From an uncultured bacterium (GTDB lineage Bacteria > UBP6 > UBA1177), in assembly GCA_905235605.1 (NCBI GenBank), contig CAJOMF010000010.1, forward strand, positions 1-40,433: DNA of 40,433 nt. The letters run 5' to 3'. The first letter of the stretch is position 1. Each line of letters starts with the position of its first letter. The notes under the pieces were generated by a model. The model was not told the DNA's origin. It did no database searches and worked only from the letters and a program-made list of their open reading frames with translations. Positions 8,846-27,412 of the stretch are shown here, in pieces. The position numbers and the translations under genes are program-made.

Positions 8846-11626
8846 ATGAAAAAACTATTTTTACTTGTTCTTGCCGCATTTTTTGTGTTCAGCTGCGGCG
8901 GCGGAAAAGGTCACGAGACGGAACAGGACGATTCTGATGCCGACACTTATTATGAACCGGAGGATCTGGATTGTTATGATTGCAACGGCGAGTCAGACGA
9001 TTCTGATTCCGATACGGACGAACCGGATGAAACCGGTGATAACGATTCTGACTCAGACGATTACGATAGCGACACTTATGAACCGGAGGATCTGGACTGC
9101 TATGACTGCAACGGCGATTCGGACGATCCCGATACAACTCCTGATGAGGACGGGCCTGAAGCCGTTGACACTTCAAAAGTCGAATGGAACGGTAAAATCG
9201 GAACGGTTTCGGTAACAGGCGACGAGCTCAGGACCTACACTCTGACCACAAATGCGGAACTTCGCGACAATTATCCTGAATCGAAGCAGCGCGTTATTCC
9301 CGAAACTGCCGGAAACCCTGTTCTCCGCAGCGGACACACTATGTTTGATGCACTTTTTGCTCTGGCAGTAACTGAACTCAACGAAAACAAAGTCACGGCA
9401 ATAAGTGACTACAGCATGAACAACGGGGATCCTGTAGACTGCGACTGCTTTGAGACAGGTGCAAACTGGCACTATGTCTGGACGCGTGACACCGCTTACG
9501 CAGTTCATTCCTCGGTCGCTTTTTTCGAACCGCAGAAGTCGAAAAATTCTCTTAGATTCAAGATCTCGGAACGCAAAAGCACAGCCGGCGGCGGAAACAT
9601 GCAGATAGTTCAGGATACAGGTTCCGGCGGCTCGTGGCCTGTCAGCACCGACCGCGTAGTCTGGGCTCTTGGAGCAGCCGAGACGCTCAAAAACCTCGAA
9701 GGAAGCGATTACAACAGCTTTTTGTCTGAATCTTACGAAGCGATAAAAAACACTTTGGAAGCCGACAGACAGCATGTTTTTGACGAAAATGACGGTTTGT
9801 ATCGCGGCGAGCAGTCTTTCCTTGACTGGAGAGAGCAGACTTATCCGCAGTGGACTGCGCAGAATACGAAACACATCGGAATGTCGAAAACTCTTTCGAC
9901 GAATGTCCTGCATTATATGGCGATGGAAATCGCTTCGGAGATGGCTTCAGAACTCGGCAGAACTGACGAGGCGGCTCAATTCGCGTCTCAGGCGGCAAAT
10001 CTGAAAAATGCAATAAAATCAGCTTTTTATCTTGCTGACAGAAAGACTTTTTCAACGATGAAAACGACTTTCCTCGACTATTCTTCAGTTGACAAAAGAG
10101 ATCTTCTGGGTGAAGCTCTGACTATTCTTTCAGGTGTTGCTGAAAATAATCAAAGTACTGAAATTATTGCAGAATATCCTGTGACTGAAGCCGGTCCTGC
10201 TGTAATTTTCCCGCAGGAGCCCGATACGAAAATCTATCACAACCGTGCGATCTGGCCTTTCGTAACTTCCTACGGTCTGCGTGCTGCGGCAAAAGCCGGA
10301 AACGACAAATTTTACGAAAATGCATTCATGAGTTTAGTCCGCGGTGCAGCATTCAACCTTTCTAACATGGAAAATTTTGAGTTTACGACACTCAGCGCCT
10401 GGTACGATGACGCGACATTTCCGCAGTTGAGCGGTCCCGAGGTAAATTCAAGGCGTCAGCTCTGGAGCGTCGCCGGATTCCTTTCGATGGTCCTCGACTC
10501 GATTTTCGGTCGCGAGCAGACTTTGAAAACGCTGTGGTTTTCGCCGAAAATTCCGGTTGAACTGAGAAACACTTTCTTTGCCGGAAGCTCAGAAATCGTT
10601 CTCAAAAACCTGAAATTTAAAGGGAAGACTATTGAACTGAAAATTGTTCTTCCTCAGAAAAATGAAGAAAATTCAGGCTTTTATACGCTTAAAACACTCA
10701 AACTTGACGGTGTCGGGAAAACCGTTCCTTTTACTGTCAGCGACTTGAAATCAGAGAGTAAAATCGAGATGGAGCTCGAACTTTCGGACGAATCGGGCAC
10801 GCTCAATCTTGTCGACTGCAACGCAAATCCGAACAAGTGCTGGGCGCCGCTTCCTGCGACGAATGTTTCTGTTGCATTGGACGGAAAAAGATTGGGAATT
10901 ACGTTCACTGCTTCAAGCAATGCGGTTTCCTACAACGTTTACCGCGACGGAAAGAAGGTCAAGGAAAATCTGACGGAACTTTCATGGCGTGACGACTACG
11001 AAAATCCCGATTATGTGCACAATTCATACTGCTACAGCGTTTCGGCAGTAAATTCGGAAGGGTGGGAAAGCCACCACTCAGACCCCGTCTGCTACTGGGG
11101 CGAAAACTATGAACGGACGAAGCTGCAGTTTTCGGCTGTATCGTCAGAAGATGCGGCGAACGAATACCGTTTTGACCAGTTTGCGACACATTTCGACCAC
11201 AATAAGCCTCACTTCGGTGACTGGGGAGTGCCTGATGCAGTTCTTTCGGTTTCGAATATTAAGCCGAAAGATAGCGGAACATACCTCGTCTCTGTGGAAT
11301 ACGGCAGCGGACGCCCGATAAACACAGGGATCACTTCATGCAACAAAATAGTTAAAATCACTGATGAAAGCGGTAATGTCGTTCTGGAAAAAATGGTCTT
11401 TATGCCTCATTTGGGTGACAACTGGGACATTTGGGGCGAATCATCGTTTGCAGAGGTCGAGCTGAGTGCAGGCAAAACCTACAAAGCCGAAATAAGTGAC
11501 GCTTTCAACATGTCCTACTTCGAACACTTCATTCCGTTTACGGCTGGTGCCGGCGGCGGGACCGATGTCTACAACAGAGCGAATATCTCGACACTCAAAT
11601 TTTTGCTGAAAGAGATAAAGGATTAA
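8846..11626 (+). CDS. Large glycoside-hydrolase-like lipoprotein with Asp-rich stalk
   Basis: A 926-residue lipoprotein with lipobox VFSC (Cys17). Residues 25-115 are an Asp-rich stalk holding two copies of a segment built on EPEDLDCYDCNG, likely calcium binding. From about 120 to 650 the sequence resembles (alpha/alpha)6-barrel, six-hairpin glycosidases of the GH15/GH63 type: NWHYVWTRDTAYAVHSSVAF, GSWPVSTDRVVWALGAAETL, QSFLDWREQTYPQW and RAIWPFVTSYGLRAAAKAG. A fibronectin-III-like domain follows near 665-760 (SYNVYRDGKKVKEN), then a C-terminal beta domain. It probably acts on an alpha-linked polysaccharide at the cell surface. The family and catalytic acids are not certain. The ribosome binding site is weak; it starts 6 bases after the previous gene. 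Confidence 0.72.
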   Translation: MKKLFLLVLAAFFVFSCGGGKGHETEQDDSDADTYYEPEDLDCYDCNGESDDSDSDTDEPDETGDNDSDSDDYDSDTYEPEDLDCYDCNGDSDDPDTTPDEDGPEAVDTSKVEWNGKIGTVSVTGDELRTYTLTTNAELRDNYPESKQRVIPETAGNPVLRSGHTMFDALFALAVTELNENKVTAISDYSMNNGDPVDCDCFETGANWHYVWTRDTAYAVHSSVAFFEPQKSKNSLRFKISERKSTAGGGNMQIVQDTGSGGSWPVSTDRVVWALGAAETLKNLEGSDYNSFLSESYEAIKNTLEADRQHVFDENDGLYRGEQSFLDWREQTYPQWTAQNTKHIGMSKTLSTNVLHYMAMEIASEMASELGRTDEAAQFASQAANLKNAIKSAFYLADRKTFSTMKTTFLDYSSVDKRDLLGEALTILSGVAENNQSTEIIAEYPVTEAGPAVIFPQEPDTKIYHNRAIWPFVTSYGLRAAAKAGNDKFYENAFMSLVRGAAFNLSNMENFEFTTLSAWYDDATFPQLSGPEVNSRRQLWSVAGFLSMVLDSIFGREQTLKTLWFSPKIPVELRNTFFAGSSEIVLKNLKFKGKTIELKIVLPQKNEENSGFYTLKTLKLDGVGKTVPFTVSDLKSESKIEMELELSDESGTLNLVDCNANPNKCWAPLPATNVSVALDGKRLGITFTASSNAVSYNVYRDGKKVKENLTELSWRDDYENPDYVHNSYCYSVSAVNSEGWESHHSDPVCYWGENYERTKLQFSAVSSEDAANEYRFDQFATHFDHNKPHFGDWGVPDAVLSVSNIKPKDSGTYLVSVEYGSGRPINTGITSCNKIVKITDESGNVVLEKMVFMPHLGDNWDIWGESSFAEVELSAGKTYKAEISDAFNMSYFEHFIPFTAGAGGGTDVYNRANISTLKFLLKEIKD
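8942..9127 (+). repeat. Direct repeat in the Asp-rich stalk of the glycosidase
   Basis: Two near-identical blocks of about 57-60 bases, at 8942-9002 and about 9071-9127, encode the same EPEDLDCYDCNG segment. Differences are mostly synonymous (for example GATTGTTATGAT versus GACTGCTATGAC), so this is an older duplication kept by selection on protein sequence. Confidence 0.75.
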
Positions 11627-25690: not shown

Positions 25691-25767
25691 AAATTTCGAG
25701 ATCCCGTGATTTCGGTATCTTGGTAGCCGCCGTCGTGATCCCGAGATTCCGGTATCCCGTGATTCCG
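25691..25767. repeat. 8-base periodic array, locus B
   Basis: Units AAATTTCG, AGATCCCG, TGATTTCG, GTATCTTG (25691-25722), a 13-base break, then TGATCCCG, AGATTCCG, GTATCCCG, TGATTCCG (25736-25767). All eight keep AT at positions 3-4 and seven keep CG at 7-8. It occupies the gap between cysD and lat, upstream of the lat promoter region. Longest of the three arrays in the window. Confidence 0.8.
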
Positions 25768-25794
25768 GCAAGAGTTGCGGCGGCATTATTCCGG

Positions 25795-25820
25795 AAAGAC
25801 GGCTACATATAGCCGTCTTT
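25795..25820 (-). terminator. Hairpin overlapping the cysD stop codon
   Basis: A perfect 11-bp stem (AAAGACGGCTA with TAGCCGTCTTT) closes on a 4-base loop. On the minus strand the stop TAG of cysD lies in the stem and only TTT follows, so it is a weak or non-canonical terminator; on the plus strand TTTT follows. Confidence 0.5.
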
Positions 25821-26684
25821 TCTGAGCGTTTCCAATCCGCCGCCGTCGTCTTTATCCTGCGCTCTGCCTGAGCGTTCGGCGATCTTGGCGAACTTTCCGC
25901 TTTTGAGTTCTCCGATTATTTCAGAAACATTTTTTGCCGTGCTTTCGACAGGAAACGTGCACGGGTAGCAGCCGAGCGAGCGGTATCTTTTTCTCCCGCC
26001 GTGATCGTAGTAAAGCGAAACTGTCGGGATTTTTTCGCGCTCGATGTATTCCCAGATGTTGAGTTCCGTCCAGTCGAGAAGCGGATGGATGCGCAGGTGT
26101 GTGCCCGGCGCGAAATCGGTTTTGAACTGATTCCAGAACTCAGGCGGCTGGTCACCGATATTCCATTCATTCGATGCGTTGCGGGGCGAGAAGTAGCGTT
26201 CCTTCGAGCGGCTTCCTTCCTCGTCGCTCCTGATGCCCAGTATTATCGCGGTAAAAGCCTCATGTGATTTGTCAAGTTCGTAGCAGCCTTTCGCGTGGTT
26301 GAAAACGTATCTTCTGCCCGTGCCGTCGAGCGTTGCCTTGAGTGCCTGAGTCTTGAGATTGCGGCAGCACGTGATCCTGTCGGTGTTTCCGTCCGGGAAA
26401 GTCGCCTTCTGCGCGAGAGCTTCTTCGTTTACTCCGACTACCATGTTCAAGTGCCACTCTTTCGTGAGGCGGTCGCGGTATTCGATCATTTCGGGAATTT
26501 TGTAGTGCGTGTCGATGTGGATCAGAGGAAACGGAACGTGGCCGAAAAACGCCTTTTTCACGAGCCAGAGCAGAACAGTGCTGTCCTTGCCTATTGACCA
26601 GAGCATACCGAGATTTTTGAAATTCGCGTAAGATTCTCTGATGATGTGTATCGAAGTGGCTTCAAGCCGGTCAAGGTGTTCCAT
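25803..26684 (-). CDS. cysD: Sulfate adenylyltransferase subunit 2
   Basis: A 293-residue PP-loop enzyme that makes adenylylsulfate (APS) from ATP and sulfate, normally with the GTPase CysN. The PP-loop SIGKDST is at residues 30-36; RSLGCYPCTFPVES and the C-terminal ERSGRAQDKDDGGGLE match the CysD family. The ATG at 26684 is chosen because GGAGG precedes it; a longer frame reaches into the periodic repeat at 26751. No cysN, cysH or sulfate transporter lies in the window; the APS kinase cysC is about 8 kb away. In the same direction as the MBL hydrolase gene but about 100 bases apart. Confidence 0.93.
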   Translation of the reverse strand: MEHLDRLEATSIHIIRESYANFKNLGMLWSIGKDSTVLLWLVKKAFFGHVPFPLIHIDTHYKIPEMIEYRDRLTKEWHLNMVVGVNEEALAQKATFPDGNTDRITCCRNLKTQALKATLDGTGRRYVFNHAKGCYELDKSHEAFTAIILGIRSDEEGSRSKERYFSPRNASNEWNIGDQPPEFWNQFKTDFAPGTHLRIHPLLDWTELNIWEYIEREKIPTVSLYYDHGGRKRYRSLGCYPCTFPVESTAKNVSEIIGELKSGKFAKIAERSGRAQDKDDGGGLETLRKDGYM

Positions 26685-26750
26685 GCAGCCTCCAAAAAAC
26701 GGCGAATAGTAGCAAAAGATTTTTTTAAGTAAAATTTTGCCGCCGCCAAA

Positions 26751-26787
26751 ATATGTCGATATTTCGAGATCTCGATATATCGATATC
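26751..26787. repeat. 8-base periodic array, locus C
   Basis: Units ATATGTCG, ATATTTCG, AGATCTCG, ATATATCG, then ATATC. AT at positions 3-4 and CG at 7-8 hold in the first four. It lies between the cysD ribosome binding site and the stop codon of the MBL gene (26786-26788). The free bases are more AT-rich than at loci A and B, but the rule is the same. Confidence 0.75.
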
Positions 26788-27412
26788 AATGGAGGAAGGG
26801 ATTGAGCTTTTTTTCGAGGGAGATCGAGGTGTTTTCGTCGTGACCGGGATAAACAACGGTCTCGTCGGGAAGTGTCAGCAGTTTTGTTTTGATGCTTTCA
26901 ACTATTTTCCTGCCGTTGCCGCCTGGGAGATCGGTTCTTCCGATGCTGCTTCTGAAAAGGGTGTCGCCTGAAAAAAGAACGGGCTTACCTGAATTTTCAA
27001 TGTAGAAGCAGGTGCTTCCCGGTGTGTGACCTGGAGTGTGAAGGACTTTTATTTTCGTTCCGGCAAAGTCGAGCGTCATGCCGTCTTCGAGTTTGAGGGC
27101 TACTTTGCCTTTGAAAACGGAAGTCAGACCGAAATCTTCCGAAAGGTTGAGCTGCGGCGAATAGAGCCAGTCGTGTTCGAAAGTGCTGACGGCTGTTTTT
27201 GCATCCGGAAAAGCCTCAGAGATGTCATTCAGTCCGCCTATGTGGTCAAAATGTGCGTGCGTTAGAAGAATATAGCGCACATTGAAGTTTTTTGCGGCTC
27301 TTATTATTTTTTCTGCATTGCCGCCGGGGTCGATAATGAACGCTTCATCTGCTTCTGAAACGATGTAACAGTTAGCTCCGATGGGAGCGACGGGCATTTT
27401 CAGGATTTCCAT
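26786..27412 (-). CDS. MBL-fold metallo-hydrolase (glyoxalase II-like)
   Basis: A 208-residue metallo-beta-lactamase-fold hydrolase. The metal motif HAHFDH is at residues 52-57 (His52, His54, Asp56, His57), followed by VLHTPGHTPGSTCFY (third His) and LFSGDTLFRSSIGRTDLPGG (bridging Asp); the last His is in VYPGHDENTSI. This is the YcbL-type branch of the glyoxalase II group, acting on thioesters such as S-lactoylglutathione or other small substrates; the exact substrate is unknown. AAGGAGGT precedes the ATG, and a TATAAT-like box lies 28 bases upstream. Confidence 0.88.
   Translation of the reverse strand: MEILKMPVAPIGANCYIVSEADEAFIIDPGGNAEKIIRAAKNFNVRYILLTHAHFDHIGGLNDISEAFPDAKTAVSTFEHDWLYSPQLNLSEDFGLTSVFKGKVALKLEDGMTLDFAGTKIKVLHTPGHTPGSTCFYIENSGKPVLFSGDTLFRSSIGRTDLPGGNGRKIVESIKTKLLTLPDETVVYPGHDENTSISLEKKLNPFLH

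Follow-up and report, generated by a model that had tools for sequence, protein, structure and literature searches.

Tandem operator ladders read by proteins include the 8-bp met boxes of MetJ and the 7-bp heptads of omega. Other short repeats include the cyanobacterial STRR heptanucleotide repeats, the units of which are near-identical copies, and the intergenic mosaic elements of Neisseria, in which dRS3 arms, a fixed 20-bp repeat, surround variable interiors. The elements considered here are lattices of alternating CG and AT dinucleotides separated by variable NN letters, and were followed up from a window of 40,433 nucleotides, i.e. the whole stretch of DNA analyzed. They are like STRR in being short-period, intergenic, and lineage-restricted, but differ from them in that half of the lattice letters can vary freely and a unit does not resemble its neighbor. 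With the Neisseria dRS3 elements they share short inverted arms, interchangeable interiors, and dispersal between genes, whereas their own arms are degenerate, (CGS)n, and their interiors are rule-bound. We found no described equivalent of the lattice elements in the literature; repeat and motif finders seek conserved sequence, and an element that keeps two out of every four bases can easily escape them.

REPs of the GTAG and CGTC super-families are small, are present in many copies 3' of genes, in convergent and co-directional gaps, and have inverted arms, with occasional copies lying inside genes; their sequence is conserved and tagged (GTAG or CGTC), and a RAYT (Y1) transposase often accompanies them (PMC3733652). 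The lattice elements likewise are small and numerous within a genome, lie 3' of genes in convergent and co-directional gaps, have inverted arms, and occasionally occur inside genes, but they conserve dinucleotide steps only, and just one of the 15 genus genomes encodes the Y1 transposase (PF01797), the other 14 lacking it; mobilization by Y1/RAYT was rejected on the latter basis. Raw counts of the tags in the flanks of 36 elements, taken without a background, were 0 for GTAG, 1 for CTAC, 4 for CGTC, and 6 for GACG. Because tags and transposase are missing, we do not claim REP membership. With respect to protein recognition, BldC oligomerizes on variable numbers of 9-bp direct repeats (PMC5859096) and RdfS, as an oligomer, recognizes long regions of low sequence conservation (PMC11963761). 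These two precedents indicate that ladders of this kind could be read. The lattices resemble the BldC, MetJ, and omega operators in having contiguous short boxes at a fixed pitch, with few bases read and several boxes per array; however, those sites are at promoters and have a known regulator and a readable consensus, whereas the lattices occur in dozens after genes. Our preferred reading, to which we give somewhat less than even weight, is that the lattice family comprises REP-like intergenic elements, the core of which is a two-fold-symmetric, predicted protein-binding ladder with an 8-bp pitch.

The earlier note had picked out three places in the window, 107-138, 25691-25767, and 26751-26787, and all three are indeed AT/CG lattices, although the second, described there as one array, consists of two lattices 15 bp apart. 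Lattice 1 (105-138, n = 9 alternating dinucleotides; CGAGATCCCGTAATCACGTGATTTCGTAATCCCG) is a standard 34-bp module with five CG and four AT steps; by inspection, its left GC arm, gcgctgc (96-102), is complementary at 6/7 positions to its right arm, gcggcgc (148-154). Here and below, arms are given on the plus strand and no strand is assigned to the lattices. Lattice 2a (25693-25718, n = 7; ATTTCGAGATCCCGTGATTTCGGTAT), a stretch that is identical in the relative G014, has 7 half-units and is separated from lattice 2b by the 15-bp gap, which includes a GC arm and two broken dinucleotides. This inner arm, gccgccg (25726-25732), is an inverted repeat of 25778-25784, within the right arm gcggcggc (25777-25784), which is preceded by the linker gcaagagtt. 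Lattice 2b (25734-25767, n = 9; CGTGATCCCGAGATTCCGGTATCCCGTGATTCCG) is again a standard 34-bp module, of which 16 bp (two units) are missing in G014. Lattice 3 (26753-26786, n = 9; ATGTCGATATTTCGAGATCTCGATATATCGATAT) has 9 half-units, is AT-ended, is adjoined by the GC arm gccgccgcc (26739-26747), and abuts the stop codon of a minus-strand open reading frame (26786-27412). A neighboring minus-strand gene (25803-26684) is CysD-like, of the sulfate adenylyltransferase/PAPS reductase family, as read by eye from its translation; a terminator-like hairpin at 25793-25820, AAAGACGGCTACATATAGCCGTCTTTT, contains its stop codon.

The pattern is in large excess over expectation. In the window, ATNNCGNNATNNCG has 24 matches compared with 1.97 +/- 1.55 in dinucleotide shuffles. 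Genome-wide (statistics cover 1.51 of the 2.67 Mb, or 57%, of the window's genome, G000), the 22-mer pattern has 121 matches per strand and its reversed control has 0, and a scan of 104,291 bp of intergenic DNA against randomized sequence gave 27 arrays with 7 or more half-units versus 0 in 20 Markov-1 simulations. Chance is thus excluded at three scales. When alternating dinucleotide pairs and spacings were scanned in the intergenic DNA of G000, CG/AT at 4+4 was found and no other dinucleotide lattice, the remaining top matches being A/T runs or the CG/AT arrays themselves in a shifted reading. The lattice pattern is real, genus-wide, and cross-phylum: arrays are present in 15/15 species of the genus, while the 34-bp pattern is found in 0/13 genomes from elsewhere in the phylum. 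Among GTDB contigs, the matches listed by a scan were mostly from Bacteroidales, for the greater part rumen Prevotella, and had diverse NN; some non-Bacteroidales matches were set aside as pure octamer repeats, which a pattern of this type would pick up in any case, or as being at a chance-level number (about 4). At least four of the loci listed come from relatives of the window's organism, i.e. L064 ('Bacterium' RGIG2292, goat duodenum), which is G014 as judged by shared arrays, L062, which is close to G000, and L109 and L115 (RGIG7134), which look like more distant relatives. The Bacteroidales arrays, among the matches listed, have no arms and are of variable length, up to 34 half-units, and occupy short gaps, mostly between co-directional genes. 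Some viral contigs (IMG/VR, L287-L320) also carry lattices without arms and with diverse NN, some of them between genes (e.g. L311:7251-7284 and L307:7647-7680), which implies that the rule extends to phages or to their host flanks. Tandem arrays of another degenerate type, with period 7 (AATTNNN-like and GAAGTTA-like), were seen beside 8-bp arrays in Bacteroidales at L039:5512 and L069:3013 and in the flanks of L111 and L129.

A feature common to both lineages is the avoidance of C at the position following CG (0.9% in the genus and 1.9% in Bacteroidales), and the rule can therefore be refined to (CG D N AT N H)n; genus arrays likewise seldom have C before AT (3.7%). The usual genus array is a module of exactly 34 bp, CG(N2 AT N2 CG)4, also written (CGNNATNN)4CG, and run lengths peak at this value, i.e. 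9 half-units from CG to CG, in 21/62 and 11/25 runs. Cores in the genus are often flanked by GC-rich inverted arms, in which CG/GC steps have a variable S between them (23 times in G000 and 19 in G014); linkers such as GCAAGACTT and CAAATCCTGC are common to several copies, and some loci have two cores and an inner arm. In a minority of the armed elements the interior is instead the 9-bp array TA[AG]GGNNNN, seen within GC arms at C2:36776-36845, C12:37919-37961, and C27:15539-15593 of G000 and at L273:230-290 and 9648-9717; the same array is present, among the matches listed, in Bacteroidales loci L060:2712 and L067:7464. At two orthologous sites, several members of the genus have a third interior, of CGTRACG-like units, instead of the CG/AT lattice; one site is between ompH-like and kinase genes (L322, L325, L327, L329) and the other downstream of a gene on C16 (L344, L348).

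The arrays inspected contain no identical repeats with unique spacers of constant length, in agreement with the view that they are not CRISPR, nor are they simple repeats, as neighbors resemble each other no more than shuffled units do, in either lineage. In a test taking all arrays of at least 34 bp, adjacent-unit (lag-1-unit) identity was 0.208 compared with 0.237 +/- 0.016 after shuffling. This result bears on the proposal that the lattices are degenerate microsatellites in which slippage of 8 or 16 bp causes expansion and only the NN letters are allowed to drift. At a distance of two units (16 bp), resemblance slightly exceeds that of shuffled units, both in the genus (0.296 versus 0.236 +/- 0.022) and in Bacteroidales (0.414 versus 0.363 +/- 0.011), where the arrays are also longer and variable, and 16-bp (two-unit) indels relative to G014 are present at C10:25693 and C4:35662; this weak signal and the indels indicate that slippage does act. 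As the main explanation it is nonetheless distinctly unlikely and, within the genus, is disfavored by the dissimilarity of adjacent units and by a length that is quantized at 34 bp; nor can slippage explain the fixation of CG and AT alone, at 4-bp spacing, in two lineages.

A folding element had been suggested as well, and in this regard a hairpin acting as RNA or DNA (a classical REP or an attC-like site), with the lattice as an imperfect stem, has to be considered. The outer GC arms are inverted repeats, and single sequences do fold into hairpins, but the NN letters of the core are non-complementary: the best dyad scores 31.0 compared with 33.5 +/- 3.4 in shuffles, NN complementarity about the central dyad is 0.383 versus 0.388, and no compensating pairs were seen in place of the fixed AT and CG steps. 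On both counts we regard hairpins as very unlikely, only the arms being inverted repeats. At gathering thresholds, no Rfam family matched the window. Intrinsic terminators were rejected as an explanation, because T-runs are found in 9/36 cases against a 25% background.

The observation that the arrays lie beside minus-strand genes holds for the three places in the window, but is not general, with 35 loci of mixed orientation comprising 14 convergent, 16 co-directional, and 5 divergent gaps. The 14/35 arrays in convergent gaps represent an excess, as such gaps make up 12-16% of intergenic regions, and the distance from stop codon to array is mostly about 10-23 bp. The adjoining genes of which the translations were read look like housekeeping ones: CysD, dihydrolipoamide dehydrogenase, RdgB/Ham1, thioredoxin, Sir2, and a Ser/Thr kinase. 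Cassette- or integron-like gene carriage was rejected, as these neighbors have an ordinary appearance and synteny is conserved. The position just 3' of stop codons and the excess between convergent genes are what one would expect of a host-beneficial element (an insulator, roadblock, or supercoil-absorbing site) bound by a host chromosome protein, mobility being incidental, as is the continued occupancy of sites across species, at which flanks are 80-90% identical. Similarly, orthologous Bacteroidales sites keep the lattice while NN and length differ, with flanks about 70-85% identical. We consider this explanation rather unlikely, however, given that presence or absence of arrays varies between close species, that one and the same site can have an unrelated 9-bp array as its interior instead (C11:29823 and C1:58386, at both of which this is the case in G014), and that T-runs are not enriched, so that no ordinary terminator is involved.

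At alignable orthologous lattices, 24/66 NN letters had changed compared with 0/74 fixed letters, by a hand count from alignments of a few sites (C1:57701, C3:51161, C34:18939, and C16:7477, against G006) that is biased in its ascertainment toward recognizable lattices; the flanks of these lattices are roughly 80-92% identical. CG and AT are thus conserved beside rapidly changing NN. In pairs with few letter changes, however, breaks are also seen at fixed positions (AT to TT in G009, AT to AA in G008, and decayed lattices in G001 and G007), and selection on a standing copy may therefore be weaker than the pooled count suggests. Whole interiors also differ: at C16:7477 the arms are kept in G014 and the NN series is unrelated, and at C1:45844 both arms and NN differ. 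Such rewriting, together with breaks that are about as frequent at fixed as at NN positions where a pair differs little, might reflect a dedicated machinery that lays down fresh lattices with randomized NN, by error-prone or template-poor synthesis, followed by ordinary mutational decay. That possibility is exceedingly unlikely in our view; no candidate machinery was identified, and some arrays agree in NN order more often than within-array shuffles do (30 pairs of at least 14/16 versus 10.4 +/- 3.2), implying that some arrays are copies of each other, although most of the NN similarity between copies is due to composition.

Returning to the protein-binding ladder, which the earlier note had listed among its options, this best fits the rule, the pitch, and the length. 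A rule that is strand-symmetric, content-free, fixed in pitch and length, and present in two phyla points to a reader of double-stranded DNA with two-fold-symmetric subunits spaced 8 bp apart; the two-fold-symmetric boxes in tandem and the same hidden avoidance of C after CG in two unrelated lineages count in its favor, while the Bacteroidales arrays, without arms or fixed length, count against it. The recurrence in one gut-bacterial genus and in unrelated Bacteroidales suggests that a protein reads a spacing rule rather than a fixed sequence. In the model proposed, an element of about 60-70 bp would have GC-rich inverted arms around the 34-bp core, which would be read by a symmetric, oligomerizing protein, with contacts limited to the self-complementary CG and AT steps; four overlapping CGNNATNNCG boxes could, for example, be occupied by four dimers. 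NN would thus be free to drift or to be exchanged, save that C is avoided after CG and G before CG, and interiors may be exchanged by recombination or re-insertion via the arms. No reading protein was found in the genus; the family most to be expected on 8-bp ladders, RHH_1, searched for with the model PF01402, had no match in the 15 genomes (0/15) and was rejected as the reader. We think it doubtful, taken as a whole, that the elements conserve the spacing of self-complementary dinucleotides through a shared protein or machinery of unrelated gut bacteria that reads or writes the rule, with NN being rewritten faster than the neutral flanks. Were the ladder protein-read, the recognition mode would be one with most direct readout on palindromic steps. 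Because the rule is a simple pattern, the reader, the sites, and the effect on 3' ends and convergent genes become directly testable.

Degraded coding sequence does not account for the array flanks, 91% of the bases in arrays being outside called ORFs. An exception to the non-coding placement is an in-frame lattice copy in a TonB-like gene of relatives (G006:C1:139433-140146, in L203, and L284:10196-10942, in G014), where the lattice modules lie in the linker of the protein, the TonB-like identity of which was read from its C-terminal domain. Coding conversion of elements has been reported for REPs and for Rickettsia palindromic elements, and here too a lattice element appears to have been turned into coding sequence, the linker modules being 51-bp (17-codon) units that encode APRDNEITESRN-like repeats.
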